DNA of 64,000 nt, taken from contig NZ_POXP01000001.1 in the NCBI RefSeq assembly GCF_003044935.1, forward strand, positions 434,001-498,000. Reading direction: 5' to 3'. Position numbers and translations under genes: made by a program. Each line of letters begins with the position of its first letter. The stretch's first letter is position 1. The stretch comes from Neisseria subflava (GTDB lineage: Bacteria; Pseudomonadota; Gammaproteobacteria; Burkholderiales; Neisseriaceae). Under the pieces are notes generated by a model. That model worked only from the letters and a program-made list of their open reading frames with translations. It was not told the origin of the DNA and searched no databases. Below, one piece after another: positions 37,414-57,089 of this stretch.

Positions 37414-37443
37414 AAAAGGCCGTCTGAATTTCAGACGGCCTTT
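37414..37443 (-). terminator. DUS hairpin closing cassette 4
   Basis: Perfect AG-DUS inverted pair with a near-absent loop, 11 nt after the TrbM-like stop. The same hairpin ends each repeat unit. Confidence 0.85.
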
Positions 37444-37454
37444 GTGTAGATAGA

Positions 37455-37763
37455 TTATCGATGTACGACTATTTCGATAATGGGTGCAATCTCTTTGTCA
37501 CGGGAAGCAGGACACTGCTGGAGGAAGCGGCGGCGGGCGCTGATGGTGTCTTGCGCGTATTTGTGCTGAATGGAATAGAACCTGTGCAGTGCAGGGTTGC
37601 ATTCTTTAGGCGGCGTACCCGGAGAAGTCAGGCAGGTAATGGCCTCGCAGGCATATTTTTTATCGCCTGTCAGCAGCTTGCCGGCAATATCTGAAGCATT
37701 GACTACAGGCATAGAAAACGGCAGCAGGGCTGTGGTTAAAACAAAAATGGATAAATTTTTCAT
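37455..37763 (-). CDS. TrbM/KikA-like protein, cassette 4
   Basis: Periplasmic protein of 102 aa with a signal peptide and the TrbM-type core (YACEAITCLTSPGTPPKEC, then FYSIQHKYAQDTI). TrbM-like proteins accompany plasmid-type T4SS; their role is unclear. Nearly identical to the three other copies in the array. Confidence 0.78.
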   Translation of the reverse strand: MKNLSIFVLTTALLPFSMPVVNASDIAGKLLTGDKKYACEAITCLTSPGTPPKECNPALHRFYSIQHKYAQDTISARRRFLQQCPASRDKEIAPIIEIVVHR

Positions 37764-37843
37764 TGTGTCGTACTCGTTAAAATAGAATTGGGATTAGAGG
37801 AGGGCATCAAAGACCGTCTGAACAACAGACAGCTTTTGGTCTA

Positions 37844-38365
37844 TTAGAATTTTGGCATAGAGCAGCCTTCAGGGGTAATAATTCTGCATTGTAAAGCTCC
37901 ACGTTTTTGACATTTTCTTAATGCCTCCGCTTCAGCCATACCCGGGGGGGTTACGGCAAAAAAAGCTGAACCATCTTTTGCTTGAGCAACAGCGATACAG
38001 CCATTACGAACCCAGGCTCTAACTTTACACGGTTTATTTGTTCCACCTTCTTCGCAGGTTTTAATGGCCAGCTTTTTTGCAGCCTCAAGTGAATCCATCT
38101 CAAGTGCGCCACCTGAAATACCTGTTTTAGGATTGATTGCCCATGCTCCGTATTTTGAAGGAACATTGATATTGACAACACTTGGTTGGCTCTGAGTGTA
38201 ACCGTTATTCGAAGATTGTGGTCTTCCTACGTTATATAGAATCTGTCGACCCGAACTATCGATAATGCGACAGGTACCTGTTGCAGGCTGATATTCTCCG
38301 CCACAACCGTTAGCATAAATATTCAGGCTAACTAGCCCTAATAGTACTAAAAGCAATTTTTTCAT
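37844..38365 (-). CDS. DUF4189 secreted protein, cassette 4
   Basis: 173 aa with a signal peptide (MKKLLLVLLGLVSLNIYA), a conserved Cys-rich N-terminal part (NGCGGEYQPATGTCRIID), a variable linker and a DUF4189 domain (YGAWAINPKTG to EGCSMPKF). Eight or more cysteines suggest several disulfides. Function unknown. It follows the truncated virB6 of this cassette by 51 nt. Confidence 0.8.
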   Translation of the reverse strand: MKKLLLVLLGLVSLNIYANGCGGEYQPATGTCRIIDSSGRQILYNVGRPQSSNNGYTQSQPSVVNINVPSKYGAWAINPKTGISGGALEMDSLEAAKKLAIKTCEEGGTNKPCKVRAWVRNGCIAVAQAKDGSAFFAVTPPGMAEAEALRKCQKRGALQCRIITPEGCSMPKF

Positions 38366-38416
38366 TACAAATCCAATCTTTTATTTTTTCAAATTTAATA
38401 TTTGAATGTAGAAATA

Positions 38417-38980
38417 CTAGGATGGTTTATTTACTTGGCTGGGTTGTTTCATGGCATCGGTAGATGTACTTCCTGTCTGCTGGATACCACCAGTTGTCCA
38501 TGTATTTCGTGAATTTGAATCATAATTATCATTATTGACTGAATTGCCATCTCGATTCTGAACATTATGATTAGTCTGCTGCTGTTGGCTATTCATACCC
38601 GGCGGTGTTGCAGGCTGACCATTTCCCCAACCCTGCATTGCATTGTATCCGGAGTAGGATGCCATGATACCGTTAAACCACATGCCTGCCATAGGCGGTA
38701 CGGTAATCAGCAGGGTGGAGAGCATCAAACCCAAGCCCAGCTGCTGGGTAACGGTTTCCATAATGCCGGTTGTGCCGCCTTCACCGATGACGGTTGCCAC
38801 AAATTTGCCGGCTGCCGCGCCGCCGAATAAGTGGCCCACCAAGTCCATGGAAATCTCCGCCATAACGCCGAGCAAGACGCTGGAGAAGATAGTAGCTAAT
38901 CCGAAGTATAGCCATTTTTGGAACAGCGGAGCGGTTCTTTTAAACAGGAGGCACAAAATAAAAATAGGTGCGAAAACGAC
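38417..38980 (-). pseudogene. 5'-truncated virB6 3' cassette (c4)
   Basis: Carries only the last third of VirB6, from the membrane segments onwards, with its own C-terminal tail (QQQQTNHNVQNRDGNSVNN... ending SQVNKPS). It begins abruptly 7 bp after the DUS hairpin of the preceding unit. The only in-frame start is a TTG within the hydrophobic segment, without ribosome site, so it is best read as a silent donor cassette rather than a gene. Confidence 0.82.
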
Positions 38981-38987
38981 TATTTAT

Positions 38988-39017
38988 AAAAGGCCGTCTG
39001 AATTTCAGACGGCCTTT
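38988..39017 (-). terminator. DUS hairpin closing cassette 3
   Basis: AG-DUS inverted pair like the one at 37414-37443, ending the c3 unit and lying next to the c4 virB6 breakpoint. Confidence 0.85.
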
Positions 39018-39028
39018 GTGCAGATAGA

Positions 39029-39337
39029 TTATCGATGTACGACTATTTCGATAATAGGGGCAATCTCTTTATCACGGGAAGCAGGACACTGCTGGAGGAA
39101 GCGGCGGCGTGCGCTGATGGTATCTTGCGCGTATTTGTGGTGAATGGAATAGAACCTGTGCAGTGCAGGGTTGCATTCTTTAGGCGGCGTACCTGGAGAA
39201 GTCAGGCAGGTAATGGCCTCGCAGGCATATTTTTTATCGCCTGTCAGCAGTTTTCCGGCAATATCTGAAGCGTTGACTACAGGCATAGAAAACGGCAGCA
39301 GGGCTGCGGTTAAAACAAAAATGGATAAATTTTTCAT
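39029..39337 (-). CDS. TrbM/KikA-like protein, cassette 3
   Basis: 102 aa, almost identical to the c4 copy (one or two residue changes, e.g. SIHHKYAQ for SIQHKYAQ). ATG 39337 (MKNLSIFVL) begins the signal peptide; the longer frame upstream is non-homologous. Confidence 0.78.
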   Translation of the reverse strand: MKNLSIFVLTAALLPFSMPVVNASDIAGKLLTGDKKYACEAITCLTSPGTPPKECNPALHRFYSIHHKYAQDTISARRRFLQQCPASRDKEIAPIIEIVVHR

Positions 39338-39418
39338 CGTGTCGTACTCGTTAAAATTAAATTGGTAATTAGAGGGGGATATCAAAGGCCATCTGAACAA
39401 CAGACAGCTTTGGGTTTA

Positions 39419-39928
39419 TTAGAATTTAGGCAGAGAGCAAGTTTCAGGGAGAAAAATCTTACATCCATGAGCACCAGCATTCTGGCATCTTCTTAAAGCT
39501 TTTGTTTCGGTAAGTCCTGGTTCTGCTGCAACTGTGAATAGTCTTGATCTCCTGCCTTCATCTCCCTGTGCACTGGCAATACAACCATTTCTTGCCCATG
39601 CAAGTATTTTACATGGTGCATTACTTCCACCACGTTCACAAGTTCTGATGGCTTCTCTCTCCGCAGCAGCTCGGGAATCCATATCGAGTGCACCACCTGA
39701 CATACCTGTTTTCATGTTCATGGCCAGTGCCATATATTTTGAAGGAACCTCGATATTAATAATTTCCGTAGGTTGATTTTGTTGATATTGACGAGACGAC
39801 GTACAGTTGGGATTATAGCCATATTGACACAGCGCCGGATTGTTTTGCAATGCTCCTCTAGTTACGGGGTCAGCAGCATAAATATTCAGGCTTGTCAGTC
39901 CTAACAATACAAAAAGCAATTTTTTCAT
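39419..39928 (-). CDS. DUF4189 secreted protein, cassette 3
   Basis: 169 aa with signal peptide. The N-terminal part differs from the others: the GCGGEYQPATGTC block is replaced by DPVTRGALQNNPALCQYG. The DUF4189 part (YMALAMNMKTGMSGGALDMDS to ETCSLPKF) is intact. Confidence 0.78.
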   Translation of the reverse strand: MKKLLFVLLGLTSLNIYAADPVTRGALQNNPALCQYGYNPNCTSSRQYQQNQPTEIINIEVPSKYMALAMNMKTGMSGGALDMDSRAAAEREAIRTCERGGSNAPCKILAWARNGCIASAQGDEGRRSRLFTVAAEPGLTETKALRRCQNAGAHGCKIFLPETCSLPKF

Positions 39929-39985
39929 TATGAATCCAATCTTTTATTTTTTTTTAAATATTTTTAATATTTAAATGTAGAAATA

Positions 39986-40538
39986 CTAGGATGGTTTACT
40001 TCCTTTGCCGGGTTGTCCGGGTTGTTTCATGGTATCGGTAGTTGTACTTCCTGTCTGGCTGTCACCAGTTGTCCACTTATAGCGTTGATCTAAGCCAACA
40101 GTTGCATTATCGGACGAATTACCAGCTGCATTCTGAACATTATAATTAGCTTGCCTGCTAGCACCACCATCCAAATGCGGCGGAACTTCTTGGCGATTTC
40201 CATTTCCATTGCCGATAACTGAGTAGGCGCTGAAGCTACCCATCACACCGTTAAACCACATACCTGCCATAGGCGGAGAGCATCAAACCCAAGCCCAGCT
40301 GCTGGGTAACGGTTTCCATAATGCCGGTTGTGCCTCCTTCGCCGATGACGGTTGCCACAAATTTGCCGGCTGCCGCGCCGCCGAATAAGTGGCCCACCAA
40401 GTCCATGGAAATCTCCGCCATGACGCCGAGCAGGACACTGGAGAAGATAGTAGCCAATCCGAAGTATAGCCATTTTTGGAACAGCGGAGCGGTTCTTTTG
40501 AACAGGAGGCATAAAATAAAGATGGGCGCGAAACCGAC
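39986..40538 (-). pseudogene. 5'-truncated and frameshifted virB6 cassette (c3)
   Basis: As in the other cassettes it starts inside virB6. Compared with its sisters, 20 bp are missing after about 40276 between GGCGG and GGTGG direct repeats, which shifts the frame between the LGLMLS and MAGMWFNG segments. The tail is distinct (MGSFSAYSVIGNGNGNRQEV... ending PGKGSKPS). It cannot encode a working VirB6 tail unless repaired. Confidence 0.85.
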
Positions 40539-40546
40539 TATTTACA

Positions 40547-40574
40547 AAAGGCCGTCTGAATTTCAGACGGCCTT
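40547..40574 (-). terminator. DUS hairpin closing cassette 2
   Basis: AG-DUS inverted pair after the c2 TrbM-like gene. Confidence 0.85.
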
Positions 40575-40586
40575 TGTGTCGATAGA

Positions 40587-40895
40587 TTATCGATGTACGA
40601 CTATTTCGATAATAGGTGCAATCTCTTTGTCACGAGAAGCAGGACACTGCTGGAGGAAGCGGCGGCGTGCGCTGATGGTATCTTGCGCGTATTTGTGGTG
40701 AATGGAATAGAACCGGTGCAGTGCAGGGTTGCATTCTTTAGGTGGCGTACCCGGAGAAGTCAGGCAGGTAATGGCCTCGCAGGCATATTTTTTATCGCCT
40801 GTCAGCAGCTTGCCGGCAATATCTGAAGCGTTGACGGCAGAGGCAGAAAACGGCATCAGGGCTGCGGTTAAAACAAAAATAGATAAATTTTTCAT
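40587..40895 (-). CDS. TrbM/KikA-like protein, cassette 2
   Basis: 102 aa (start 40895; a second ATG at 40898 is in frame). The mature part is identical or nearly so to the other copies; differences are confined to the signal peptide (FSASAVNA). Confidence 0.78.
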   Translation of the reverse strand: MKNLSIFVLTAALMPFSASAVNASDIAGKLLTGDKKYACEAITCLTSPGTPPKECNPALHRFYSIHHKYAQDTISARRRFLQQCPASRDKEIAPIIEIVVHR

Positions 40896-40953
40896 CATGT
40901 CGTACTCGTTAAAATAGAACGGAGAGATTAGGGGAAAGTATAGCGTATAAGAA

Positions 40954-41469
40954 TTAGGGTAAAGAGCAACCCTCTGGCATTAAGATTCTACATTCTTTTG
41001 CGCCTGTATTAGTACAATTTTCCATAGCTGTTTGTTCGGAAACTCCTTGCTCAGCAGCACCGCCAATAATTATAGGAGTACCTTTTAAATTTCCTACGGC
41101 CGCAGCAATGCAACCATTTCTAACCCATTTAAGAATTTCACAAGAAGCTCCTTTACTACCTTTCTTACAACGTTTAATTGCTTCACTTCTTGCTTCTGCT
41201 AATGACCTATGGTTTAAAGAACCTGTAATATGACCAGCCTTTTTACTGATTGCTATAGCTCCGAACCTAGATGGGACGTGTACATCTACATATTCTATTT
41301 TCTTTTGTGGCTTAGCTACTTTTGATTGTGGAACATTATATAAAATTTGCCGACCAGAGCTATCAATAATACGACAAGTTCCAGTTGCAGGCTGATATTC
41401 GCCACCACAACCATTAGCATATATATTTAAGCTTGTTAAACTTAATATAATTAGAATCAGTTTCTTCAT
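40954..41469 (-). CDS. DUF4189 secreted protein, cassette 2 (most divergent)
   Basis: 171 aa with signal peptide and the shared N-terminal NGCGGEYQPATGTCRIIDSS block. It then has a linker and DUF4189 domain unlike the others (RFGAIAISKKAGHITGSLNH, VGNLKGTPIIIGGA). Its ATG shares a base with the stop of the upstream virB6 tail (TAATG), whereas other cassettes have about 50-nt gaps. AT-rich. Confidence 0.8.
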   Translation of the reverse strand: MKKLILIILSLTSLNIYANGCGGEYQPATGTCRIIDSSGRQILYNVPQSKVAKPQKKIEYVDVHVPSRFGAIAISKKAGHITGSLNHRSLAEARSEAIKRCKKGSKGASCEILKWVRNGCIAAAVGNLKGTPIIIGGAAEQGVSEQTAMENCTNTGAKECRILMPEGCSLP

Positions 41470-42062
41470 TACGAGTCTCCTTCTTTGGTTGTTTTTCTAT
41501 TAGCTAATCCAATTTGTGTCTGTTCTTGAGTTTTTATAATATTAGTATTTGTAGGTTGCAAAGAATTCCCATATTCCGCCATTGTATATGGTGTAAAATT
41601 AGTCGAGTGATTAGAATTTTGAATCATTTTTTCACTAACCTGATTAGCTCTCTGTTCTACTTGTGATTGACTATTCATCCCCGGTGGCGTAGCAGGCTGA
41701 CCGTTTCCCCAGCCCTGCATTGCATTGTATCCGGAGTAGGATGCCATGATACCGTTAAACCACATGCCTGCCATAGGCGGTACGGTAATCAGTAAGGTGG
41801 AGAGCATCAGACCCAAGCCCAGTTGTTGGGTAACGGTTTCCATAATGCCGGTAGTGCCGCCTTCACCGATGACGGTTGCCACAAATTTGCCGGCTGCCGC
41901 GCCGCCGAATAAGTGGCCCACCAAGTCCATGGAAATCTCCGCCATGACGCCGAGCAAGACGCTGGAGAAGATGGTAGCCAATCCGAAGTATAGCCATTTT
42001 TGGAACAGCGGAGCGGTTCTTTTGAATAGGAGGCACAAAATAAAGATAGGCGCGAAACCGAC
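41469..42062 (-). pseudogene. 5'-truncated virB6 3' cassette (c2)
   Basis: Conserved core up to PPGMNSQ, then a completely different tail (QVEQRANQVSEKMIQNSN... ending NRKTTKEGDS) lacking the WTTGG..TTTDAMKQP ending shared by the other three. Only a TTG within the core could start it. Probable silent donor. Confidence 0.82.
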
Positions 42063-42069
42063 TATTTAC

Positions 42070-42100
42070 AAAAGGCCGTCTGAATATCAGACGGCCTTTT
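42070..42100 (-). terminator. DUS hairpin closing cassette 1
   Basis: AG-DUS inverted pair after the expressed-copy TrbM-like gene; it probably ends the virB operon transcript and insulates cassettes c2-c4. Confidence 0.85.
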
Positions 42101-42109
42101 GTAGATAGA

Positions 42110-42418
42110 TTATCTATGTACGACTATTTCGATAATGGGTGCAATCTCTTTGTCACGAGAAGCAGGACACTGCTGGAGGAAGCGGCGGCGTGCGCTGATG
42201 GTGTCTTGCGCGTATTTGTGGTGAATGGAATAGAACCTGTGCAGTGAAGGGTTGCATTCTTTAGGCGGCGTACCCGGAGAAGTCAGGCAGGTAATGGCCT
42301 CACAGGCATATTTTTTATCGCCAGTCAGCAGCTTGCCGGCAATATCTGAAGCATTGACGGCAGAGGTAGAAAACGGTAGCAGAGCCGCTGTTAAAACAAA
42401 AATAGATAAGTGTTTCAT
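42110..42418 (-). CDS. TrbM/KikA-like protein, expressed-locus copy (c1)
   Basis: 102 aa, start ATG 42418 (MKHLSIFVL). Signal peptide, then CEAITCLTSPGTPPKECNPSLHRFYSI, as in TrbM/KikA/MpfK proteins of conjugative systems. It is the last gene of the virB1-virB6 operon before a DUS hairpin. Confidence 0.8.
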   Translation of the reverse strand: MKHLSIFVLTAALLPFSTSAVNASDIAGKLLTGDKKYACEAITCLTSPGTPPKECNPSLHRFYSIHHKYAQDTISARRRFLQQCPASRDKEIAPIIEIVVHR

Positions 42419-42499
42419 CGTGTCGTACTCGTTAAAATTAAATTGGTAATTAGAGGAGGATATCAAAGGTCTTCTAAACAACAGACGGCTTTGAGTCTA

Positions 42500-43027
42500 T
42501 TAGAATTTAGGTAGTGAGCAGCCCTCAGGCGTAGTAATTCTACATTGTACAGCTCCCGAAGCCTGACATTTCCTTAAGGCTGTCGGTTCTGCTTGACCAA
42601 TAGAGGGTTCTGTTCCATAGAATGTTTTCAGTTTTTTGCCAGATTTTCCTTGAGCAACGGCGATACAGCCGTTCCTAACAGACACTCCAATTACACATGG
42701 TGCGTTACGCCCACCTTGCTCACAAGTTTTAATAGCTAGTTTCTTGGCAGCAGCAAGTGAATCCATTTCAATGGCACCAGCTGAAATACCTGTTTTAAGG
42801 TTGACTGCCCACGCCCCATATTTTGAAGGTACATTGATAACTTCTGTTTGACTCTGAGGAGAATTACTATTGGAAGATTGAGGCTTACCAACGTTATACA
42901 GAATTTGTCGGCCCGAGCTGTCAATAATACGACAGGTTCCAGTTGCCGGTTGGTATTCGCCGCCACAACCGTTGGCATAAATATTTAGACTAGTCAGTCC
43001 TAACAGTATAAAAAGAAATTTGTTCAT
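42500..43027 (-). CDS. DUF4189 secreted protein, expressed-locus copy (c1)
   Basis: 175 aa. ATG 43027 (MNKFLFILLGLTSLNIYA) starts a signal peptide equivalent to the other copies; a TTG four codons earlier is unlikely. Cys-rich N-terminal block, linker, DUF4189 domain (YGAWAVNLKTGISAGAIEMDS to EGCSLPKF). Lying 61 nt after virB6, it should be co-expressed with the T4SS, but its role is unknown. Confidence 0.82.
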   Translation of the reverse strand: MNKFLFILLGLTSLNIYANGCGGEYQPATGTCRIIDSSGRQILYNVGKPQSSNSNSPQSQTEVINVPSKYGAWAVNLKTGISAGAIEMDSLAAAKKLAIKTCEQGGRNAPCVIGVSVRNGCIAVAQGKSGKKLKTFYGTEPSIGQAEPTALRKCQASGAVQCRITTPEGCSLPKF

Positions 43028-43088
43028 TACACAGTCCAATCTTCTGTTTTATGAATATGAATATTTTTAATATTTAAATGTAGCAATG

Positions 43089-44219
43089 CTAGGATAGTTT
43101 ATTCCTTTTGCCATGTTGTTCAGGTTGTTTCATAGCATCGGTAGTCGTATTTCCTGTCTGACTCCCACCTGTTGTCCACGTCTCGTGGTAATTGATGTTT
43201 GGCTGACTATTTTTGGACTCATGGGAGAAATTCTGCACATTATGACTAGCCTGCGCTTGTTGACTATTCATCCCCGGTGGCGTAGCAGGCTGACCGTTTC
43301 CCCAGCCCTGCATTGCATTGTATCCGGAGTAGGATGCCATGATACCGTTAAACCACATGCCTGCCATAGGCGGTACGGTAATCAGCAGGGTAGAGAGCAT
43401 CAGACCCAAGCCCAGCTGTTGGGTAACGGTTTCCATAATGCCGGTTGTGCCGCCTTCACCGATGACGGTTGCCACAAATTTGCCGGCTGCCGCGCCGCCG
43501 AATAAGTGGCCCACCAAGTCCATGGAAATCTCCGCCATGACGCCGAGCAAGACGCTGGAGAAGATAGTAGCTAATCCGAAGTATAGCCATTTTTGGAACA
43601 GCGGAGCGGTTCTTTTGAACAGGAGGCATAAAATAAAGATGGGCGCGAAACCGACAAACAGGGAAATCGCGATACGGTACATGATGAGCATGGTGCCTGC
43701 CACGACGGCAGGACCTGCCGTACCTACTCCGGCAAACCATTTGGCTTCGGAAAGCTTATCTTCCAGATGATCATCATCTGCGGTATCGATGGCAGAAAGG
43801 CTAGATAGGACAAGTTGAGTTGTTTTCAGGTTTAAGTCGATTTTACAGCCGGTAATATAGGAGGTCTGTTCGGTCAGACACTCGCTGCCGAAATCGTTAT
43901 TGCCATGCATAATTTGACTGATGCCATTGGCAAGATTATCAGTCAATACACGGACGCTAAAGCCACTGCCTAAGGAAACTCCAAGCGCAATGGCAATAAC
44001 AACATAGTTTTTACCAAGGCTGAAAATAAATCCTTTGAGACCTTCCTGACTCCGGCCTGTTACGATCAGATAGCCCTGAATCATAATCCATAATGTCAGC
44101 AATGCCAAAACCATTGTAAGGGCGAGGTTTAAGTTTTTAGATAAGACTACTTCGGTAAAGTAGCCGATTCGCGCATAAAGATAGTCGCGAATGCCAGTAT
44201 AAAGGAGTAAATCCATCAT
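43089..44219 (-). CDS. virB6: T4SS inner-membrane protein VirB6 (full length)
   Basis: Polytopic inner-membrane channel component (376 aa) with an N-terminal periplasmic stretch and several hydrophobic helices between about 30 and 300. The hydrophilic, Gln/Asn/Ser-rich C-terminal tail (after PPGMNSQ) has no known fold. This is the only complete virB6. Everything from about residue 190 on is repeated three more times downstream with other tails. It is in the minus-strand operon virB1-B2-B3-B4-B5-B6. Confidence 0.9.
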   Translation of the reverse strand: MMDLLLYTGIRDYLYARIGYFTEVVLSKNLNLALTMVLALLTLWIMIQGYLIVTGRSQEGLKGFIFSLGKNYVVIAIALGVSLGSGFSVRVLTDNLANGISQIMHGNNDFGSECLTEQTSYITGCKIDLNLKTTQLVLSSLSAIDTADDDHLEDKLSEAKWFAGVGTAGPAVVAGTMLIMYRIAISLFVGFAPIFILCLLFKRTAPLFQKWLYFGLATIFSSVLLGVMAEISMDLVGHLFGGAAAGKFVATVIGEGGTTGIMETVTQQLGLGLMLSTLLITVPPMAGMWFNGIMASYSGYNAMQGWGNGQPATPPGMNSQQAQASHNVQNFSHESKNSQPNINYHETWTTGGSQTGNTTTDAMKQPEQHGKRNKLS

Positions 44220-44313: not shown

Positions 44314-45096
44314 TCAATTTGGTTTATAAATCGGTTTGATTTTGTTTTCGATTTTTCCCCTCTTTTCAACTTCCCTATTTGTTCTTTCTCTAAAGCGATC
44401 CGTAGCTTCAGTCAGTTTGCCGTATGTAACTCCTTTAGTGATGTTTTTGTTCAAACTGCTGCCGGTCAGCTGTTCTTTGGTCAGCATTTTGCGCATTGAG
44501 TTGTAATATGCAATCTGGCTGTCTAAAAATTCAATTTTGTTCTTGTACTGATTGTACTTGGCAATTACGGCATTTACTTGTATCTGTACATTGTTTTCGG
44601 CAGTTTCAGCTTTACCTGCCTGATTCGAGTAATTAAAACCTTTCGTGTCTTTAGACAAAGGGGTTGCAGCAGCCATTGAACTTGCTGATGTGCCTTGGGA
44701 TTTTACTAAGCCATTGATTCTGTCAAAATCTTTTTTAAGATCGTCATCTATTTCAATCAAAAGGTCATATTTATTTTGTTCTAATTCTGTAATTTTTAGA
44801 CAAATCGCACCCGAAGCAGGGTTGTCACGTTGTATTGCCCTACATTTTTTCTTGCGTCGTTCAAACATTCTTTTTACTTGAGAAGATTCTCGAACATTTG
44901 TATCTGCGCCTTTTAATTTGTCCAACCCCCCACGAGTGAGAGCGGATAATTGAGCCTGCCAGTTCATCAGCTGCTGGAAGGCATTGGTCATCGCTGCTCC
45001 ATCAAATACAGGAATACCTGTTGCTGTTACGGATGTATTTCCCAGCATTCCTGCGCACACTAAAACTGCAGACAGTTTTCTCATTGTGTTTTTCAT
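44314..45096 (-). CDS. virB5: T4SS minor pilin VirB5-like protein
   Basis: Secreted 260-aa protein with a signal peptide (cleavage near VTATG). It is helical and Lys/Asn-rich, with N-terminal IPVFDGAAMTNAFQQLMNW resembling the VirB5/TrbJ start. The identification rests on this and on its place between virB4 and virB6. VirB5 proteins sit at the pilus tip and contact other cells. Confidence 0.8.
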   Translation of the reverse strand: MKNTMRKLSAVLVCAGMLGNTSVTATGIPVFDGAAMTNAFQQLMNWQAQLSALTRGGLDKLKGADTNVRESSQVKRMFERRKKKCRAIQRDNPASGAICLKITELEQNKYDLLIEIDDDLKKDFDRINGLVKSQGTSASSMAAATPLSKDTKGFNYSNQAGKAETAENNVQIQVNAVIAKYNQYKNKIEFLDSQIAYYNSMRKMLTKEQLTGSSLNKNITKGVTYGKLTEATDRFRERTNREVEKRGKIENKIKPIYKPN

Positions 45097-45222: not shown

Positions 45223-47739
45223 CTAATCCGCGTTGCGCATCACATTGGCGCTTGCTTTCTTACCAGAACCCTTACGTTCATCGTAGAAGGTCTGTAACCA
45301 ATCCTCCGGTCTTACCGCATCAATGCCGACACCAAGACGTTCGGCCGTTTTCTTGATGATGACGTCCATGATGTCGATGTTGTCGGTACTGGCGGAGATA
45401 ACAGCCAATTCGTCGTCAAATCCGCGCAGGTTGAGCTGGCATACTGCGGAAGCATGGCCCTGTTTGACTAAGAAACAGCGGCTGCGCTCGTCCAGGCTTT
45501 TAATCACTTGGAACTCTGAGTCGGTCAGCTTCAGTCCATCGATGTAGTCTTTTTTATCTGCATTCGGATTTGGCAGCAGTATCATGGTAGCTGTCTGCTC
45601 AATCAGTGCTGCAGAAATATCGCTTTTGAGGGCGTCTTCCGGAGACTGGGTGGCAAAGATACCCATACCGTTTTGCTTACGGATGGTTTTTTGTTTGTTT
45701 TTGGCAAACTCTTTCAAGCCGCCTTCGCCATCAAGGATTTTCCAGAATTCATCCATGATGTAGATGAAGCGGCGACCATCGATAAGCTCTTCCATTCGAT
45801 GGATAAGATAACCGATGACTGGATCGCGTACCTGTGGGTTTTCAATCACGTCGGTGTAGTCGAAGCCGATGATGTTGGCACCACTGAAGTCGATTTTGTC
45901 CTGAGGGTTATCAAAGACCCAGCCGAGACTGTTTCCTCTAGTCCATTTGCGGATATTGGCATAGAGGGAATCGTCGCCGGTATTGGGCAGCGATTTTTGG
46001 AAGTTAGAAATACTGCGCAGTGCCATTGGGGTATCAAGCATGGCTCGAACGGCGCGCAGGATATCGTCGTCTTCTGCTGCTGAATAGTGCGCCTTGCCAC
46101 CTAATTGCTTCATAAGGCCACAGAGGAATTGGACATTTGCCTCTGTATTTTCGCATTGGAAGGGGTTGAAGCCGGTCGGCTGACCGCTTTCCAGCGCCAT
46201 ATAGGCACCACCACAGGCTCTGACGAAGATTTCGGCACCACGGTCTTTATCGAAGAAGAAGATAGTGGGTTTGGGATCGTATTTTTGTACCTGGCTGAGG
46301 AGGAAGTTGATAAGTGCTGTTTTACCGGTACCAGACTTACCAATAACCATAGTATTGGCAATGGCTTTTTCTCCTTCGGAATCTTCACCTTCGAGGGTTG
46401 CATGGAAGTTGAAATAGTAGGGCTGGCCATTGGTCGTCTGAAGAACGGTAACGCATTGCCCCCATGGATTGCCTTCACGTTTACCAGCGGCAAAGTTGTG
46501 AAGAGGACAAAGGCCCAAGAAATTTAACGATGAGAGATTGGCAATACGAGTGCGGTAGTTCCAGTTACCTGGAAGCTGGGCATAATATGCAGCGCAGACG
46601 GCCAAGTCTTCTTTGGTCGTTACGAAGCCTGCATTGGAAAGCTCGGCTCGGGCAGAGGCAATGTTTTGGGAAAGTTGCTCTTGGCTGTCGGCGTAGATAG
46701 CAAGGCTAAAATGGTAGCCGCCAAGAACGAAATTGCCGGATGCGAGCTGATCCATTGCATGGTCGAGTTCTGCAATTTGGGTAAAGGATTTGTCGCCGGA
46801 AGAGATCATCATGCCACGAGTGCGCTCGAGGGTTTTCATAGCATCGTATCGGCTCATTGGGCTGAAACTATGGGTGATGACGTATTCAACATCCAAATAT
46901 TTGAGCCCGTTAAGCACGCCGGGATAGGTGCCGTCAGGGTATTCTTTAAGGTTGAGTATGGCACCGTAGTGGTTTTTACCCTCAGGAGTACGGACGATAT
47001 AGTCGCCGGTTTTGGAAGAAAAGAGATGTCGACTAAGGGGTAAGTAGTTGTAAACTGGGGCTGGAAGTACGGGAACTGGCTCGTTAACGCGGTTAAGGAT
47101 GTAACCGAAAAGTTCGAGGGTTTCAGAGAATACAGTCCCATTTTTACCTTCATACATACCAAGTCGGTATGGATGGTAGTCTTTGAGAACAGCCTCAAGG
47201 TTGGTTGCTAATTCATTTAGCATACCGATAGCTTGCTCCTGTTCGGCCTTCAGACGATCGATATTACCTGATTTATCAACAAACTTTTTGCCGTCAACAA
47301 CTGGGCGATAAATCATGGTCAAGTAAAGCTCGTTGTTCATGAGCTTTTCTTTAGAAAGTCGGGAAAAATAGCGGTCGGAGAGGCTTTGATTGAAAGACTC
47401 TTGAAATTTTGGGCGCAAATCAATGCCGCGGTGGCGGCGAATGTCATGTACCCAGAAGGCAACATTGACATAGTCCGGAGCGCGCAAGGATTGGAGTAAA
47501 CGATTAAATGTGTTGTGTTTGTGTTCGAGCTCCCATTCTTCTCGACCTACAAAAGGAAGGCCGGATAGGTGCCATGTTGTCAGGTAATCCCCCCCAGTGG
47601 TTTTGACAATGGTTGGGGAAACATGGGTGGAGAGGGATACGAATTGACTGATTGATGCGTCAGGAGTAAACATTTTATTTGTTTTTTGTGTTGAAATCGT
47701 CCGACAGACAAAAATGTCTGCCGGATGTTTTGTTGTCAT
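45223..47739 (-). CDS. virB4: T4SS ATPase VirB4
   Basis: Large inner-membrane-associated ATPase (838 aa) that powers pilus biogenesis and substrate transfer. CagE/TrbE/VirB N-terminal domain; Walker A VIGKSGTGKTALINF near residue 465; Walker B FIYIMDEFWKIL; then KTIRKQNGMGIFATQSPED. ATG 47739 overlaps virB3 by 4 nt; ATG 47673 (MFTPDASIS) is an alternative. Confidence 0.95.
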   Translation of the reverse strand: MTTKHPADIFVCRTISTQKTNKMFTPDASISQFVSLSTHVSPTIVKTTGGDYLTTWHLSGLPFVGREEWELEHKHNTFNRLLQSLRAPDYVNVAFWVHDIRRHRGIDLRPKFQESFNQSLSDRYFSRLSKEKLMNNELYLTMIYRPVVDGKKFVDKSGNIDRLKAEQEQAIGMLNELATNLEAVLKDYHPYRLGMYEGKNGTVFSETLELFGYILNRVNEPVPVLPAPVYNYLPLSRHLFSSKTGDYIVRTPEGKNHYGAILNLKEYPDGTYPGVLNGLKYLDVEYVITHSFSPMSRYDAMKTLERTRGMMISSGDKSFTQIAELDHAMDQLASGNFVLGGYHFSLAIYADSQEQLSQNIASARAELSNAGFVTTKEDLAVCAAYYAQLPGNWNYRTRIANLSSLNFLGLCPLHNFAAGKREGNPWGQCVTVLQTTNGQPYYFNFHATLEGEDSEGEKAIANTMVIGKSGTGKTALINFLLSQVQKYDPKPTIFFFDKDRGAEIFVRACGGAYMALESGQPTGFNPFQCENTEANVQFLCGLMKQLGGKAHYSAAEDDDILRAVRAMLDTPMALRSISNFQKSLPNTGDDSLYANIRKWTRGNSLGWVFDNPQDKIDFSGANIIGFDYTDVIENPQVRDPVIGYLIHRMEELIDGRRFIYIMDEFWKILDGEGGLKEFAKNKQKTIRKQNGMGIFATQSPEDALKSDISAALIEQTATMILLPNPNADKKDYIDGLKLTDSEFQVIKSLDERSRCFLVKQGHASAVCQLNLRGFDDELAVISASTDNIDIMDVIIKKTAERLGVGIDAVRPEDWLQTFYDERKGSGKKASANVMRNAD

Positions 47740-48041
47740 TGTTTGGGAGGATTGTTGCGGTATTCGTTAGGCGAGAAGCACCATGTATCAGGAAACTCCT
47801 CTCGGTTTCTGGCTTTAAGTCTAAATTTCAGACGTAAACCTAGAAAACGAAAAATCATATCATCCCGCTTGGCCATCTGCCTCATAATCAGGATGATGAA
47901 GGGAATAGTCAATAAAAAAAACATATTGAAGTACATTCCCATCAATAATCCTGAACCGGCCCCTATAAAAAATGGCACATAAGGGACGCCTAGAAAAGTA
48001 GCCGGACGTGTACATCCTCGAAAAACGATGTTCTTCTGCAT
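47736..48041 (-). CDS. virB3: T4SS inner-membrane protein VirB3
   Basis: 101-aa protein with two adjacent hydrophobic segments (about 18-60), beginning MQKNIVFRGCTRPATFLGVPYVPF, typical of VirB3. It is placed directly before virB4 with a 4-nt overlap. Confidence 0.88.
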   Translation of the reverse strand: MQKNIVFRGCTRPATFLGVPYVPFFIGAGSGLLMGMYFNMFFLLTIPFIILIMRQMAKRDDMIFRFLGLRLKFRLKARNREEFPDTWCFSPNEYRNNPPKQ

Positions 48042-48049
48042 GGTGTTAA

Positions 48050-48439
48050 TTATGCAAAAAATTGCATTGCTTGCATCATGATTGATGCTGTTTTAGCAGA
48101 ACAAGAATCCGCATTGCCAACCAGCATTCTTGCAATTTGACCTGCTGCGCCAATCAATACACCACCAATCAAAATAGGAGCAACATCGGAAATACGTTTG
48201 TGCGCAAAAGCAATTTGATAGCCAGCAAAAATGATGGCGATGGTTACAACTGCGACAGACATCAGATTTAATACGGTGTGAATATTTCTGATGAATGTAC
48301 AGGCACCACCACCAACAGCAGTAAAATCATCTTCTGCCAGACCTACTGTCGGTGCCAAAAATGCTGCAGCAACAAAAGCTGCTGTTGCAACATTTTCAGC
48401 AGTAAAGCGGGATTTTTTTTGAATCTGAGTGTTTTTCAT
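48050..48439 (-). CDS. virB2: T4SS major pilin VirB2
   Basis: 129-aa pro-pilin with a long signal peptide (cleavage near GLAEDD) and two hydrophobic helices (VLNLMSVAVVTIAIIFAGYQIAF and IGGVLIGAAGQIARMLVG) joined by a short basic loop, the classic VirB2 layout. It lies 8 nt before virB3. Confidence 0.9.
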   Translation of the reverse strand: MKNTQIQKKSRFTAENVATAAFVAAAFLAPTVGLAEDDFTAVGGGACTFIRNIHTVLNLMSVAVVTIAIIFAGYQIAFAHKRISDVAPILIGGVLIGAAGQIARMLVGNADSCSAKTASIMMQAMQFFA

Positions 48440-48485
48440 TTGAAAATTCCTATGTTTATTACAGGTTGATGTGGAAAAAAACTAT

Positions 48486-49127
48486 CTAAAAGACTGCTGC
48501 GCTATCTTTATATGTATTGCTTTTCGCTTGTGCGGTACTATTATCTTGCAAGGAGTGTTGGTTTTTAGAGATAGTGGCAGAGTATGGTTGTGGATTAGCG
48601 GTAACTGTCAAATTTGGGCGGTTAGCTTGTTGTGCTGGTATTTGGCCCATAGGGCGAGGGGTATTCACAGTATTGCTGATGACAGGAATGGCATTTTGTG
48701 GGATTGCTCTCCCTTTCCCCATGGATGAAAAAATTTTTTGCACATATCCATGCTTATAACCGGTTACAAAGTTACCGGAATAATAACAGCTGAAAGATTT
48801 ACCCCAGTCTTTTGCACGATTGTAGCATTCTCGCAATATGTGCGAGCCTGCCTTGACGTTTGGGCACACTTGGAATGCATGTTCGTAGGAATGCAACCCG
48901 TATTTTTTTAAATTGTATCGGTTAACTTGAGCTAATCCTAAGGAGAAGTTAAATCCTTTTTGTTCCAACATTCTAGCAGTAGCGACTGCTTCAGCCAAAT
49001 TTTTAGGCTGTCTTTGTAAGCGTCCGCCTACAACACCTATAGCGTATGGGTTGCCTGAGGATTCAACTCTCACGACATGATGCATAATATCATGCGGAAC
49101 AGCTAAGTCGGCGCAGGAAAAAAACAT
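48486..49127 (-). CDS. virB1: T4SS lytic transglycosylase VirB1
   Basis: SLT-type muramidase (213 aa) that opens peptidoglycan for T4SS assembly. The catalytic Glu is in HHVVRVESSGNPYAIGVV and the family's FSLGLAQVNRYN follows. ATG 49127 (MFFSCADLAVPHDIM) matches the start of Xanthomonas VirB1; the longer TTG frame from 49205 has no ribosome site. The C-terminal third is a low-complexity Gln/Asn/Ser tail. First gene of the minus-strand operon, divergent from virB7. Confidence 0.9.
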   Translation of the reverse strand: MFFSCADLAVPHDIMHHVVRVESSGNPYAIGVVGGRLQRQPKNLAEAVATARMLEQKGFNFSLGLAQVNRYNLKKYGLHSYEHAFQVCPNVKAGSHILRECYNRAKDWGKSFSCYYSGNFVTGYKHGYVQKIFSSMGKGRAIPQNAIPVISNTVNTPRPMGQIPAQQANRPNLTVTANPQPYSATISKNQHSLQDNSTAQAKSNTYKDSAAVF

Positions 49128-49293
49128 GATGTTGAGATGAAAATATGAATTTGTATTGACGTGAAATTTAGCACAGATTAAAATAATTAACAAGATTTTA
49201 ACCAATAAAAATAACCAAACATGAATTGTCTTTTCTTCATTTTTAATTAAGACGCTTTGGTTGTAACTTAAGTTGTTTTATAAGGTGCTATGT

Positions 49294-49758
49294 ATGTTTC
49301 TTTTAAGAACGCTGTTGCTGTCTGCTAGTGTGGGCGCGCTAATGGCAGGTTGTGCAAATCAGTCTGCTCCAGATTTCCCAAGTTCATGGAAGCCATTAAA
49401 TGAACTACCTGATCAGGTAACTGAGATTCCTCTTGTCAAACCTCATGTTTATCAAGTGACACGACTTGATACAACTGTAAAAGGTTTGTTGGAGCGTTGG
49501 GGAGAAGAGGCGAAGATGCCTGTTGTTTATGACTATACGCTTGATTTTACTTTGTATAAGAAAGTATCAACAATACGAAATACCGATCTTGATAATGCCT
49601 TAAGTGAATTATCTAAACTTTATGAAGATAAAGGGATGGTTTTCTATGTTCAAAATGGTGTCATTATGGCGCATAAGAGAATGGATGTTGCTGTGAAAAA
49701 CAGTGGAAAGAAAAAACATGAGAGATCAGCAAAAGCTGATGTAAAAACTCAAGATTAA
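49294..49758 (+). CDS. virB7: T4SS outer-membrane lipoprotein VirB7-like, with extra C-terminal domain
   Basis: Lipoprotein (154 aa), lipobox LMAGC. It is much larger than the ~50-aa VirB7 of Agrobacterium. After the lipid-anchored linker comes a compact domain (TTVKGLLERWGEEAKMPVVYDY...LDNALSELSKLYEDKGMVFYVQNGVIMAH) that looks like the secretin-type N0/TcpQ fold known from Xanthomonas VirB7. ATG 49294 follows an AAGGTG site. First gene of virB7-B8-B9-B10. The 166 bp between virB1 and virB7 must hold both promoters. Confidence 0.85.
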   Translation: MFLLRTLLLSASVGALMAGCANQSAPDFPSSWKPLNELPDQVTEIPLVKPHVYQVTRLDTTVKGLLERWGEEAKMPVVYDYTLDFTLYKKVSTIRNTDLDNALSELSKLYEDKGMVFYVQNGVIMAHKRMDVAVKNSGKKKHERSAKADVKTQD

Positions 49759-49769
49759 AATGGAAACAT

Positions 49770-50672
49770 ATGTTCAAATCAAGTAAAAATACTACTGATG
49801 GTAATATCCAAAAGGCTGTAAAAAGATCTTTGGATTTTGAAACGACCTTGGTTGATATCCGCAAAAAAAGTGAGAAAAGGGCATGGATTGTTGCCGGTAT
49901 TTCTACCTTCTCTTCTTTGTGTCTGCTTGGCGGATTATTTTATATTTTGCCGCTGAAAGAAAAAGAACCTTATCTTGTTATGGCTGATGTCTATACGGGA
50001 CAAGCTACTGTTGCTAAACTAGCCGGCGATTGGAATAATTTAGATATTACTAAAAATGAAGCAGTAAATAAGAGTAATATTTCCCACTTTATTATTGCTA
50101 GAGAATCTTTTGATAGTCAGATTATTTATGATAATGACTGGGCTACAGTTTATTCTATGTCGGTTGCAGGGGTATCTGACAGCTATCGCAATCTGATGAA
50201 TAAAAGTAACCCGAATAGCCCATTTAATCTTTATGGGTCTGCTCAGTCAATTCGCGTTAAGATTTTGAGTATCGTCCTTAATAATAGTGGAAAGGCCGAT
50301 GGTCGCGATGCTAGCGCAACAGTAAGATTCCAAAGATTTTTATTAAATAAGGGTACTGGCATATCAAGATTTATGGATAGCAATGTTGCTACTCTGACCT
50401 ATACTTATAATAGCAATTTGAAGATGGATGAAAAGTATAGGTTAAAAAATCCCCTGGGATTCCAGGTATTGTCTTATCGTGTTGATCCTGATGCTAGTGA
50501 ATCACCTGTTCAAGATTTATCTTCAGATTATCTTTCAGCAGGAACATCATCTGAAAGCCAAGCTCAGCAACAAGTACAAAGTGTACCTCAGCCCCAGTTA
50601 GAAGCTCCTACATCTGTAGATAATGATGTTCCTAATGCTTCTCCTATATCTGTTGAAAGTGGAAATCAATAA
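49770..50672 (+). CDS. virB8: T4SS assembly factor VirB8
   Basis: Bitopic inner-membrane protein (300 aa): cytoplasmic N-terminus, one TM (about 36-60), periplasmic VirB8/NTF2-like domain (about 75-235), then an unusual Gln/Ser/Pro-rich C-terminal extension of about 65 residues. GGAAA ribosome site; the stop overlaps the virB9 ATG by one base. Confidence 0.92.
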   Translation: MFKSSKNTTDGNIQKAVKRSLDFETTLVDIRKKSEKRAWIVAGISTFSSLCLLGGLFYILPLKEKEPYLVMADVYTGQATVAKLAGDWNNLDITKNEAVNKSNISHFIIARESFDSQIIYDNDWATVYSMSVAGVSDSYRNLMNKSNPNSPFNLYGSAQSIRVKILSIVLNNSGKADGRDASATVRFQRFLLNKGTGISRFMDSNVATLTYTYNSNLKMDEKYRLKNPLGFQVLSYRVDPDASESPVQDLSSDYLSAGTSSESQAQQQVQSVPQPQLEAPTSVDNDVPNASPISVESGNQ

Positions 50673-51397
50673 TGTTAAGAAAAATGTTTTTAGCAACAGC
50701 AGCATCGTGTTTGTTGCAAGGAAGCGTCTATGCTGCAGCTATTCAAGAGTATACGTTTCAAGAAAATACAACTTATCCCGTTCATACGGCACAAGGCGTA
50801 GTCACACAAATTGAACTTGACTCTCGTGAAAAGGTTAAAGATTTTGGTGCGGGCCTAAGTGGTGGATGGGATTTGGTACGTAGAGAAAATGTGTTTTATC
50901 TGCGTCCAAAGGCTGATGCAGTTGATACTAATCTTATTGTTCGTACTCAGGCTCACCAATATATTTTTGAGCTTAAGGTTATGAAAAATGTTGTTGGTAA
51001 TTTAGCAGAAGCTTCAGACAAAGGGGTGAATTATCAAGTTAAATTCAGATATCCCGATTCTACGGATTTCAGTCTTCGTGCTAGTACTTTGGCTGGTTAT
51101 AGCCTGAAATATGATTCTTCTAAAATCTATAATACTAATTATGATGTGGCTGCAAATGAAAAATCTCGTTGGCTAGTTCCTTTAAAAGTCTATGATGATG
51201 GCAGATTTACCTATGTCCACTTGAATAAGGGCAAGTTCACAGGTGATTTTCCTGCTGTTTATGGCAGAAAATCAGAGAAAGGAGCTGAGTTTGTCTTAAA
51301 CAGTAATGTTGAAGGTAATGTAGTTATTGTCCATGGGACTTATCCATTCTTAGTTTTGAGACATGGAAATGATGTGGTTGGATTAAAAAGGAATTAA
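50672..51397 (+). CDS. virB9: T4SS core-complex protein VirB9
   Basis: Periplasmic/outer-membrane core component (241 aa) with a signal peptide (cleavage after SVYAA), N-terminal beta domain (YPVHTAQGVVTQIEL) and C-terminal VirB9/CagX domain (FKYRYP-like KFRYPDSTDF to FPAVYGRKSEKGAEFVLN). It builds the outer-membrane ring with VirB7 and VirB10. Confidence 0.93.
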   Translation: MLRKMFLATAASCLLQGSVYAAAIQEYTFQENTTYPVHTAQGVVTQIELDSREKVKDFGAGLSGGWDLVRRENVFYLRPKADAVDTNLIVRTQAHQYIFELKVMKNVVGNLAEASDKGVNYQVKFRYPDSTDFSLRASTLAGYSLKYDSSKIYNTNYDVAANEKSRWLVPLKVYDDGRFTYVHLNKGKFTGDFPAVYGRKSEKGAEFVLNSNVEGNVVIVHGTYPFLVLRHGNDVVGLKRN

Positions 51398-51399
51398 GA

Positions 51400-52548
51400 A
51401 TGTCTGATAAGCTAAATAATGAACATCACAAAGATAGTGAATCATCACAAAATTTATATTCAAGCCAATACGAACAAGAACAATTGGCGGGACTTGAGGA
51501 GAATGCTCCTCAACTAAATGCTCCTGTTGATCGCACAGTCAACAAAAAAGCTATTGCGTTTATTGTAGCTGCAGGTTTTGGGTTAGCTGGGCTAGGGGCA
51601 TTTGCCTATCATCAATTTAGTGGTTCTGATGAAGCTCCCCCTCCAGAACGTCCTCAGGTAGTTACTGTACCAGATTTACCTGCTCCGGAGCCTCAAGTTA
51701 CTGAGATACCTCCAGTTGACTTAGTGGAAGAGCAGAAGCCTGATCCAGAGAGTTCTAAAACTACCGAATCTGTTAAGCCACCAATAGAAATATCATCTCC
51801 ACCGATAGTAGAGACCCCTCCGCCTATAATTCCTAATATTCCCGTGCAGCCTGTGGATATGTCTGCCAACACGGATTCTAAATTTGTTGAAGATGGGGAG
51901 GCTGCTCAGAAAGAGTCGGGAGCAAGCATAGCTCAAGCTAATGCTGTTCGTTATATGCATAACAGGGATAAATTACTTTTACAGGGTACTTATTTACGCT
52001 GCGTATTAGAAACTAAAATTGTTTCTGAAGTAAAAGGATTTACATCTTGTATTATCACTGAGCCTGTATATTCTGCCAGTGGAAAATATCTCTTGTTACC
52101 GAAAGGTTCGAAAGTAATGGGACAATATGGTTCCAGTAATCCTACTGGTCCGCGAATGGAGGTTATTTGGAATCGAATCATAACACCAGAAGGCGTTGAT
52201 GTAACACTGGAATCTCCTGGAGTAGATAATCTTGGTGCAGCTGGCCATGTTGGTAAATTTAAGTCTCATTGGGGATCACGTTTGGCATCAGCTTTATTGA
52301 TTAGTATGATTTCTGATGCTTTTAAATATGCTGCTACTGAATATGGCCCACAAGGACAAACGGTTACAACCAACACATCAACTACCACTAATCCTTACCA
52401 GAGTGATACAGCCAATACATTGAAGCAACAGGCTATCAATCAACTTGAGCGAAATAATGCTCGTCCCAATACAGTAACGATCAATCAAGGGACCTTGATT
52501 AATATTTATACTGCCCAGGACATTGATTTCAGTTCGGTTATGCAGTAA
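51400..52548 (+). CDS. virB10: T4SS core-complex protein VirB10
   Basis: TrbI/VirB10 protein (382 aa) spanning both membranes: cytoplasmic N-terminus, TM at about 51-72, Pro-rich periplasmic region (about 78-150) and a C-terminal beta-barrel domain with GTYLRCVLETKIVSEVKGF, LLPKGSKVMGQY and WGSRLASALLIS. It starts 2 nt after virB9. Followed by a partial DUS hairpin. Confidence 0.94.
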   Translation: MSDKLNNEHHKDSESSQNLYSSQYEQEQLAGLEENAPQLNAPVDRTVNKKAIAFIVAAGFGLAGLGAFAYHQFSGSDEAPPPERPQVVTVPDLPAPEPQVTEIPPVDLVEEQKPDPESSKTTESVKPPIEISSPPIVETPPPIIPNIPVQPVDMSANTDSKFVEDGEAAQKESGASIAQANAVRYMHNRDKLLLQGTYLRCVLETKIVSEVKGFTSCIITEPVYSASGKYLLLPKGSKVMGQYGSSNPTGPRMEVIWNRIITPEGVDVTLESPGVDNLGAAGHVGKFKSHWGSRLASALLISMISDAFKYAATEYGPQGQTVTTNTSTTTNPYQSDTANTLKQQAINQLERNNARPNTVTINQGTLINIYTAQDIDFSSVMQ

Positions 52549-52553
52549 TTTTA

Positions 52554-52580
52554 AGGGCCGTCTGTTTTTTCAGACGGCCT
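52554..52580 (+). terminator. Degenerate DUS hairpin after virB10
   Basis: GGCCGTCTG / CAGACGGCC stem with a T-rich loop; the first copy lacks the terminal GAA, so only the stem function is preserved. Confidence 0.7.
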
Positions 52581-54588: not shown

Positions 54589-54603
54589 TAGTAATGAAAG
54601 TTC

Positions 54604-54615
54604 GAGGCCGTCTGA
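54604..54615 (+). repeat. Single DUS upstream of the putative immunity/effector pair
   Basis: AG-DUS core, unpaired, just after virD4. Confidence 0.85.
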
Positions 54616-54651
54616 AAATGAAATTTGCAAAATGACTAAAAAGGAATTTAT

Positions 54652-55293: not shown

Positions 55294-55311
55294 TACAGAG
55301 ACTAATATATA

Positions 55312-57018: not shown

Positions 57019-57089
57019 GCTAAAATGAAAAATACACCTAAGGTTCAAGTATTATTGTAATTAAATTTTTGAATAAACTTATTTTAAAC

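Follow-up and report, generated by a model that had tools for sequence, protein, structure and literature searches.

Why would a secretion-system locus keep four successive copies of the 3′ end of one channel gene, each followed by its own version of the same small gene? The question is raised by a stretch of 64,000 nucleotides from Neisseria subflava (assembly GCF_003044935.1, contig NZ_POXP01000001.1, positions 434,001 to 498,000 of the forward strand), hereafter the window, whose own coordinates are used throughout. The array lies in a locus for a Xanthomonadales-like type IV secretion system (X-T4SS; T4SS for type IV systems in general) and combines the 3′ part of virB6 with a gene of the DUF4189 family. 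In the explanation that we favor, with a probability of roughly 0.6, DUF4189 would be an exclusion (kin-protection) protein matched to the VirB6 of an attacker; recombination would swap both, and displaced pairs would be kept.

Organization of the array

A first-pass annotation of the window had described a tandem unit of about 1.5 kb, present four times and made up of the virB6 3′ part, a DUF4189 gene, a TrbM-like gene, and a hairpin of DNA uptake sequences (DUS). Repeat analysis and Pfam searches confirmed this array, with a unit of ~1.52–1.59 kb repeated four times on the minus strand. Two 300-bp repeat families, with copies 92–100% and 89–100% like the reference copy, recur at start-to-start distances of 1574/1558/1523 and 1558/1524/1593, respectively. 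Unit c1 consists, in order, of full-length virB6, the DUF4189 gene, the TrbM-like gene, and a DUS hairpin, whereas virB6 in units c2–c4 lacks its 5′ half and is followed in each by its own DUF4189 and TrbM-like genes. The absence of the virB6 5′ end from three units, likewise noted at first pass, was borne out: the headless copies share one start point, at approximately residue 187, immediately past a DUS hairpin. The copy in c3 is additionally frame-broken. The features of the array, from c1 to c4, are as follows.

43089..44219, minus strand: full-length virB6 of c1, with a variable tail from approximately residue 310 (Pfam TrbL/VirB6, E = 7.9e-21; X-T4SS relatives)
42500..43027, minus strand: DUF4189 gene of c1, product apparently exported (signal peptide judged by eye; PF13827, E = 4.6e-14)
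42110..42418, minus strand: TrbM-like gene of c1 (PF07424, E = 1.6e-21)
41469..42066, minus strand: virB6 cassette of c2, 5′-truncated, with a differing tail
40954..41469, minus strand: DUF4189 gene of c2, the most divergent class (PF13827, E = 1.3e-16)
40587..40898, minus strand: TrbM-like gene of c2 (PF07424, E = 6e-21)
39986..40541, minus strand: virB6 cassette of c3, 5′-truncated and frame-broken, mosaic with sequence like that of genome G025
39419..39928, minus strand: DUF4189 gene of c3 (PF13827, E = 8.4e-15)
39029..39337, minus strand: TrbM-like gene of c3 (PF07424, E = 6.2e-21)
38417..38983, minus strand: virB6 cassette of c4, 5′-truncated
37844..38365, minus strand: DUF4189 gene of c4 (PF13827, E = 2.3e-15)
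37455..37763, minus strand: TrbM-like gene of c4 (PF07424, E = 4.7e-21)
37419..37439: DUS hairpin ending unit c4 (exact 10-mer scan)
38993–39013 and 40551–40571: similar DUS hairpins, with a single exact DUS at 42075 (exact 10-mer scan)

The variable module extends to 44219, and the adjoining virB5-like gene (44314–45096) is variable as well. Chance is disfavored as the source of the array by the repeat analysis, the divergence figures, and the recurrence described below. An assembly artefact is unlikely, additional virB6 copies with DUF4189 genes being present in G011, G025, and G022 as well, each of these genomes being a single contig.

Divergence and mosaicism within the units

Among the virB6 cores of c1, c2, and c4 (119 codons), we counted 7, 11, and 16 synonymous differences and no non-synonymous ones; over 49 codons, the c3 core differs from those of c1, c2, and c4 by 5, 6, and 2 synonymous differences, again with none non-synonymous. 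Under neutrality, 26% of the core differences would be expected to be synonymous. The DUF4189 copies of the window share 54–74% DNA identity, with a synonymous divergence (dS) of 1.1–3.5 in five of the six pairs and saturation in the sixth. Because the cores differ synonymously only and the DUF4189 genes are this divergent, flanks and interiors must differ in history, in keeping with the near-identical outer and differing inner parts noted earlier. As judged from these sequences, the interiors most likely arrived by recombination rather than diverging in place. The synonymous-only differences further suggest that the headless cores have recently evolved as part of working genes or undergo conversion from such a gene. 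Cassette c3 is itself a mosaic, window-like over approximately nt 1–300, nearer to G025 at 321–420, and c1/c4-like at 481–580, so that breakpoints of the kind anticipated in the first-pass annotation are present.

That annotation had read the array as a silent reservoir, whose cassettes would switch the tail of the single expressed virB6 by gene conversion and carry DUF4189 along as a matched partner. The truncated cassettes, conserved flanks, mosaic c3, and synonymous-only core differences all fit, and comparable mafB/mafI and tpsC cassettes are described in Neisseria (PMC9263626). The part of the claim that stands is the exchange of tail/DUF4189 cassettes by recombination, to which the mosaic c3, the synonymous-only cores, and the recurrence of the module point. 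What the reservoir leaves unaccounted for are the free-standing DUF4189 genes and arrays in genomes that lack the X-T4SS (see below), and we consider it unlikely as the full explanation. Tail switching is compatible with an exclusion function of DUF4189, as a side effect. A single tail on every full-length virB6, with uniformly decaying cassettes, would have spoken against exchange altogether; in the comparison made, which was between species, full-length virB6 genes of other species carry differing tails.

Recurrence of the module

X-type VirB6 was found in 8 of 82 Neisseriaceae genomes, one of which (G003) has a decayed locus. DUF4189 lies directly after virB6 in all seven intact Neisseria loci. 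Further virB6 copies are present in four of the seven (the window, G025, G011, and G022), each with a 5′-truncated virB6 followed by DUF4189; the latter is broken in G022, which has a second full virB6 besides the truncated copy. In the decaying X-T4SS of G003 (L033), VirB4 is a 142-residue match, virB6 lies in two frames, and one DUF4189 gene is intact.

In a sample of 198 Xanthomonadaceae genomes (the family of Pseudoxanthomonas sacheonensis), VirB6 was detected in 78, DUF4189 in 68, and both in 65, with 13 genomes having VirB6 only, 3 DUF4189 only, and 117 neither (Fisher P = 5e-35). Twenty loci were fetched from this sample, 13 of them picked for partial virB6 matches, and 11 of the 20 (L120–L130) hold truncated virB6 cassettes in arrays; the cassette in L123 has no DUF4189 behind it, and the full copy in L130 is itself broken. 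Truncated cassettes were also found in P. wuyuanensis (L035) and Pseudoxanthomonas sp. 3HH-4 (L040). Across the 17 loci with truncated virB6, DUF4189 follows 27 of 29 cassettes (one of the 29, in L130, being the 3′ piece of the broken full copy) and is broken in 5 of those 27. The truncation points, expressed as positions in the VirB6 profile, vary between lineages (189 in the window, 191 in G025, 98 in G011, and 156 in P. wuyuanensis), which argues that the layout arose more than once. We therefore read the virB6 3′ end and DUF4189 as a repeatedly shuffled module.

Among Xanthomonadales loci found by VirB6 alone, DUF4189 adjoins virB6 in 13 of 19. Two Frateuria loci (L041, 11156–11494; L043, 11166–11492) have a small, apparently exported protein right after virB6 and no DUF4189; these proteins are TrbM-like by eye only and have no Pfam match.

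Neutral tandem duplication followed by decay would leave broken copies such as those seen in 7 of 29 virB6 cassettes and 11 of 56 DUF4189 genes. Such a process is scarcely credible here, as interiors are far more divergent than flanks, the layout recurs with other break points, and the orphan DUF4189 pairs tested have ratios of non-synonymous to synonymous substitution rates (dN/dS) below 0.3.

A hypervariable block between sister loci

Compared with the sister loci of G025 and G014, VirB1, VirB3, VirB4, VirB7, VirB8, and VirB9 are 97–99% identical, VirD4 is 96–97% identical over partial alignments, and VirB2 and VirB10 are 89% and 85% identical; thus, seven of the nine comparable other T4SS proteins stand at 96–99% between sister genomes. 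Identities to G025 and G014, respectively, are 64% and 58% for VirB6, 55% and 44% for DUF4189, and 39% and 39% for TrbM. For the virB5-like gene, identity is 27% in G014, and tblastn found no match in the G025 and G007 stretches, making VirB5 a second candidate for a specificity determinant. At the DNA level, identity drops sharply from ~37.4 to 45 kb, and the borders of this block are sharp.

VirB6 tails and DUF4189 proteins appear to co-vary, on evidence that we grade as moderate. Over 15 Neisseria pairs, tail similarity correlates with DUF4189 similarity (r = 0.62, Mantel P = 5e-5), and the correlation holds when permutation is confined to within genomes (P = 0.013). The 15 tails are 39–105 aa long and of low complexity, and a Pfam scan of three VirB6 proteins gave no domain besides TrbL.

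DUF4189 genes in genomes without the secretion system

The DUF4189 profile (PF13827) matches in 28 of 45 Neisseria genomes and in none of 14 controls. Some matches belong to a separate subfamily, single-copy in many Neisseria genomes and apparently unrelated to the T4SS, which was set aside on its match length of ~357 bp (e.g., G000:C1:814601-814957, in L097). Twenty genomes without an X-T4SS have a DUF4189 match, and sequences were compared for eight of them. Five of these (G019, G024, G027, G036, and G037) carry DUF4189 genes that group with T4SS-linked ones, and in G004, G013, and G021 DUF4189 is divergent, with 26–36% identity to any other sequence or no match. The remaining 12 have one match each, of the 357-bp kind or near it (G001 and G018). 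Matches number 14 in G019, 12 in G024, and 7 in G027, one in each belonging to the separate subfamily by match length; G019 has no VirB4 or VirB6 of X-T4SS type.

These orphan genes are scattered over unrelated places in the chromosome, some alone and some in tandem, 12 having been analyzed in G019 alone, and the genome of the window has two orphan loci of its own (L095 and L096). In a tree of 53 DUF4189 sequences (4 of 57 rows, from G004, G013, and G021, were dropped), orphans are intermixed with linked genes, with some clustering (12 label changes against a shuffled mean of 15.9), and a single clade of linked genes was rejected (approximately unbiased test, p-AU = 7e-56). One G024 orphan is 95% identical to a linked DUF4189 of G007 over 163 aa, and one G019 orphan is 98% identical to a linked DUF4189 of G022 over 124 aa. 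Scraps of virB6 adjoin orphans at L091, with a window-type junction, and at L087, with weaker matches at L053, L092, and L102. A lax VirB6 search gave matches in five of the eight compared X-T4SS-less genomes, comprising scraps and, in G024, G027, and G021, matches near the VirB4 of another T4SS (~30% identical). All seven pairs involving orphans have a dN/dS of 0.14–0.29. At L030 (8171–8626, in G030), an internal piece of virB6 lies downstream of a tandem run of four DUF4189 genes, whereas the cassettes elsewhere are 3′ pieces.

On the sequence evidence, this distribution fits immunity genes, not machine parts. Were DUF4189 an assembly partner of VirB6 or a periplasmic cofactor, with copies giving dosage or antigenic variation, it would be expected to adjoin virB6, as it does in 13 of 19 Xanthomonadales and 7 of 7 intact Neisseria loci. 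That reading is most improbable, however, given the many low-dN/dS copies retained in X-T4SS-less genomes and the six Xanthomonadales loci from which DUF4189 is missing. Because free-standing DUF4189 genes occur in genomes without the X-T4SS, DUF4189 would be the selected, protective half of the module.

DUF4189 as a predicted exclusion protein

We infer from these observations that DUF4189 is protective, that VirB6 is what it targets, that exchange proceeds by DNA uptake, and that displaced pairs become cassettes. The VirB6 3′ end and DUF4189 would be the two halves of a recognition pair in a bacterial-killing X-T4SS: exported DUF4189 would shield its producer, in a manner resembling entry exclusion, from neighbors whose T4SS bears the matching VirB6. 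An altered VirB6 would let an attacker evade the exclusion of others, and retained old DUF4189 genes would protect against earlier types. New pairs would enter by DNA uptake and recombination in the conserved VirB6 core upstream, the TrbM gene serving as the downstream flank in this Neisseria lineage, and displaced pairs would persist as 5′-truncated cassettes that act both as extra immunities and as donors. An exclusion protein matched to VirB6 would explain why the two genes are linked and swapped jointly, why so many copies are kept, and why orphans occur in genomes without the weapon. For a broader version the odds seem to us about even: VirB6 would serve as an identity tag on the attacker and DUF4189 as a lock on the target in a self/non-self code, exclusion groups would diversify by cassette exchange, and X-T4SS-less commensals would collect orphan arrays as broad protection.

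The four DUF4189 proteins of the window score 53–61 bits against PF13827 (curated cut-off, 25), which is their only Pfam match at E ≤ 0.01. Six cysteines are invariant in 19 sequences, and the signal peptide was judged by eye. The only solved relative found was Rv1813c (7nhz), described as adopting a distinct fold that contains two disulfides (PMC10269737); the activity reported for it offers no clue to the role of DUF4189 here. None of the passages naming DUF4189 in the open-licence literature searched ties it to a T4SS.

Several observations weigh against an exclusion function directed at VirB6. DUF4189 went unmatched in 13 of the 78 Xanthomonadaceae genomes with VirB6, and 6 of the 19 VirB6-found loci have no DUF4189 beside virB6, although one of these (L036) ends ~1.4 kb later. 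In arrays with at least three pairs, the first co-variation test, with unfiltered tails, gave P = 0.10. A filter was chosen once that result was known: only the DUF4189 domain was kept, and 5 of 67 pairs were removed because the tail either was shorter than 15 aa or ended more than 150 bp away from the DUF4189 match. The within-array P was then 0.016, with P = 0.012 for the comparison between loci and P = 0.042 for the group of the window; one of the five arrays (L129) then correlates negatively. VirB5 is more divergent than VirB6 between otherwise near-identical loci, although it is absent from the cassettes. Better preservation of DUF4189 genes than of virB6 cassettes was considered and rejected, the two being broken equally often (P = 0.78 for the counts given above). 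Topology is awkward, too. In A. tumefaciens and B. suis, the C-terminus of VirB6 is reported to lie in the cytosol (PMC6536674). A simple inspection of hydropathy and charge in the window VirB6 agrees, so that the tail is probably cytosolic and a compartment shared with DUF4189, which looks exported, is not obvious. The surface actually targeted could lie elsewhere in VirB6, or in VirB5.

Relation to known systems

The predicted function resembles entry exclusion in conjugation (TraS/TraG of F, Eex/TraG of SXT/R391 and IncC, TrbK of RP4, and Eex of IncN/IncW), where a small gene lies by virB6/trbL. Recipient TraS or Eex of F/SXT-type systems seems to target TraG, the VirB6 homologue of the donor, and exclusion groups exist (PMC11493245, PMC8923210). 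Exclusion genes of IncP, IncN, and IncW adjoin virB6 homologues (PMC11493245), and exclusion can be evaded by replacement of the VirB6 homologue, as SGI1 does with TraG (PMC11493245, PMC8923210). The same placement beside a VirB6 homologue holds for DUF4189 in the 7 of 7 Neisseria and 13 of 19 Xanthomonadales loci. The present machine, in contrast, is predicted to be of the killing type rather than a DNA mover, the arrays and orphans are chromosomal, and the protein matches DUF4189 only (Pfam) and seems, by eye, soluble and cysteine-rich.

The mafB-CT/mafI and tpsA/tpsC-IORF islands of Neisseria likewise hold C-terminal cassettes that lack the 5′ end and are each paired with an immunity gene (PMC9263626), but the variable end here is the short, low-complexity tail of a secretion-channel subunit with no recognized toxin domain. 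In having truncated C-terminal cassettes with a partner gene (27 of 29 in 17 loci), the layout appears polymorphic-toxin-like. The truncated donors near the expression locus also recall pilS/pilE; pilS is not known to carry a partner gene, whereas nearly every cassette here has one. Orphan immunity islands against type VI secretion systems are comparable to the orphan DUF4189 arrays. X-Tfi immunity proteins belong to the same killing system and are likewise small, some of them being exported, but they are paired with effectors and are reported to protect mainly against cis-intoxication (PMC10933484).

Wild-type X. citri is reported not to kill mutants without immunity proteins, and the authors of that work posit a "still-to-be-characterized" protection from fratricide (PMC10933484). 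If our reading is true, DUF4189 would be a candidate for such protection and would explain the sparing of kin, and the locus names candidate genes for both sides, the VirB6 end and DUF4189. Exclusion, known from conjugation, would extend into interbacterial warfare and provide a role for the DUF4189 domain, and T4SS warfare would have shaped the genomes of commensal Neisseria that do not carry the machine. Neither exchangeable VirB6 tails nor exclusion in a killing T4SS was found described in the open-licence literature searched.

The surrounding X-T4SS and its putative effector pair

The remainder of the locus comprises the following features.

44314..45096, minus strand: virB5-like gene, in the hypervariable block and outside the cassettes (Pfam T4SS, E = 0.00068, below cut-off)
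45223..58109, both strands: virB4, virB3, virB2, and virB1 on the minus strand; virB7-like gene, virB8, virB9, virB10, virD4, a lipoprotein and effector pair, and virB11 on the plus strand
54652–57018, plus strand (within the above): the lipoprotein gene, then an RTX/M12B-like protein with a weak XVIPCD match

Pfam identifies VirB1–VirB4, VirB6, VirB8–VirB11, and VirD4 in the locus, with VirB5 and VirB7 below cut-off only; virB7 was assigned from position, its sole match being TcpQ (E = 0.007, below cut-off). The 19 VirB6 relatives from named genomes all fall within Xanthomonadales genera, in a search that may omit records near the genome of the window. By sequence the locus thus encodes a VirB/VirD4 set akin to the Xanthomonadales systems, as expected of an X-T4SS. 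N. flavescens SK114 and an N. subflava have been classed as carrying an X-T4SS of the bacterial-killing type (PMC6536674), and the commensal isolate KU1003-02 is described as having a T4SS of unclear role, for which two N. subflava genomes have orthologues (PMC7643975). A plasmid origin found no support, VirB6 having no tblastn match among 72,556 plasmids.

The lipoprotein and RTX/M12B-like protein at 54652–57018 probably form an effector/immunity pair. The pair had no match in the 20-kb sister stretches, some of which may stop short of it. Its presence bears on a further explanation, that DUF4189 confers X-Tfi-type immunity to a secreted effector, with the virB6 neighborhood merely its operon site. 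A small, apparently exported protein, orphan arrays, and an effector with a lipoprotein in the same T4SS locus would all suit such a role. The duplicated partner, however, is the virB6 3′ end and no effector gene, DUF4189 following 27 of 29 such cassettes, and VirB6 tails co-vary with DUF4189, albeit with P = 0.10 in the unfiltered array test; we hold effector immunity to be improbable and retain exclusion directed at VirB6 as the preferred reading.

The XVIPCD domain (PF20410) was matched at E ≤ 0.01 in 7 of 45 genomes of the genus, with the curated cut-off passed in 1 of 45 only. These weak matches occur in six of eight X-T4SS genomes, including that of the window, versus 1 of 37 others (Fisher P = 2e-5). 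The match in the window is itself weak (E = 0.0031) and lies at 56686–56943, in the effector candidate; the one in a genome without an X-T4SS (G017) has a stop inside.

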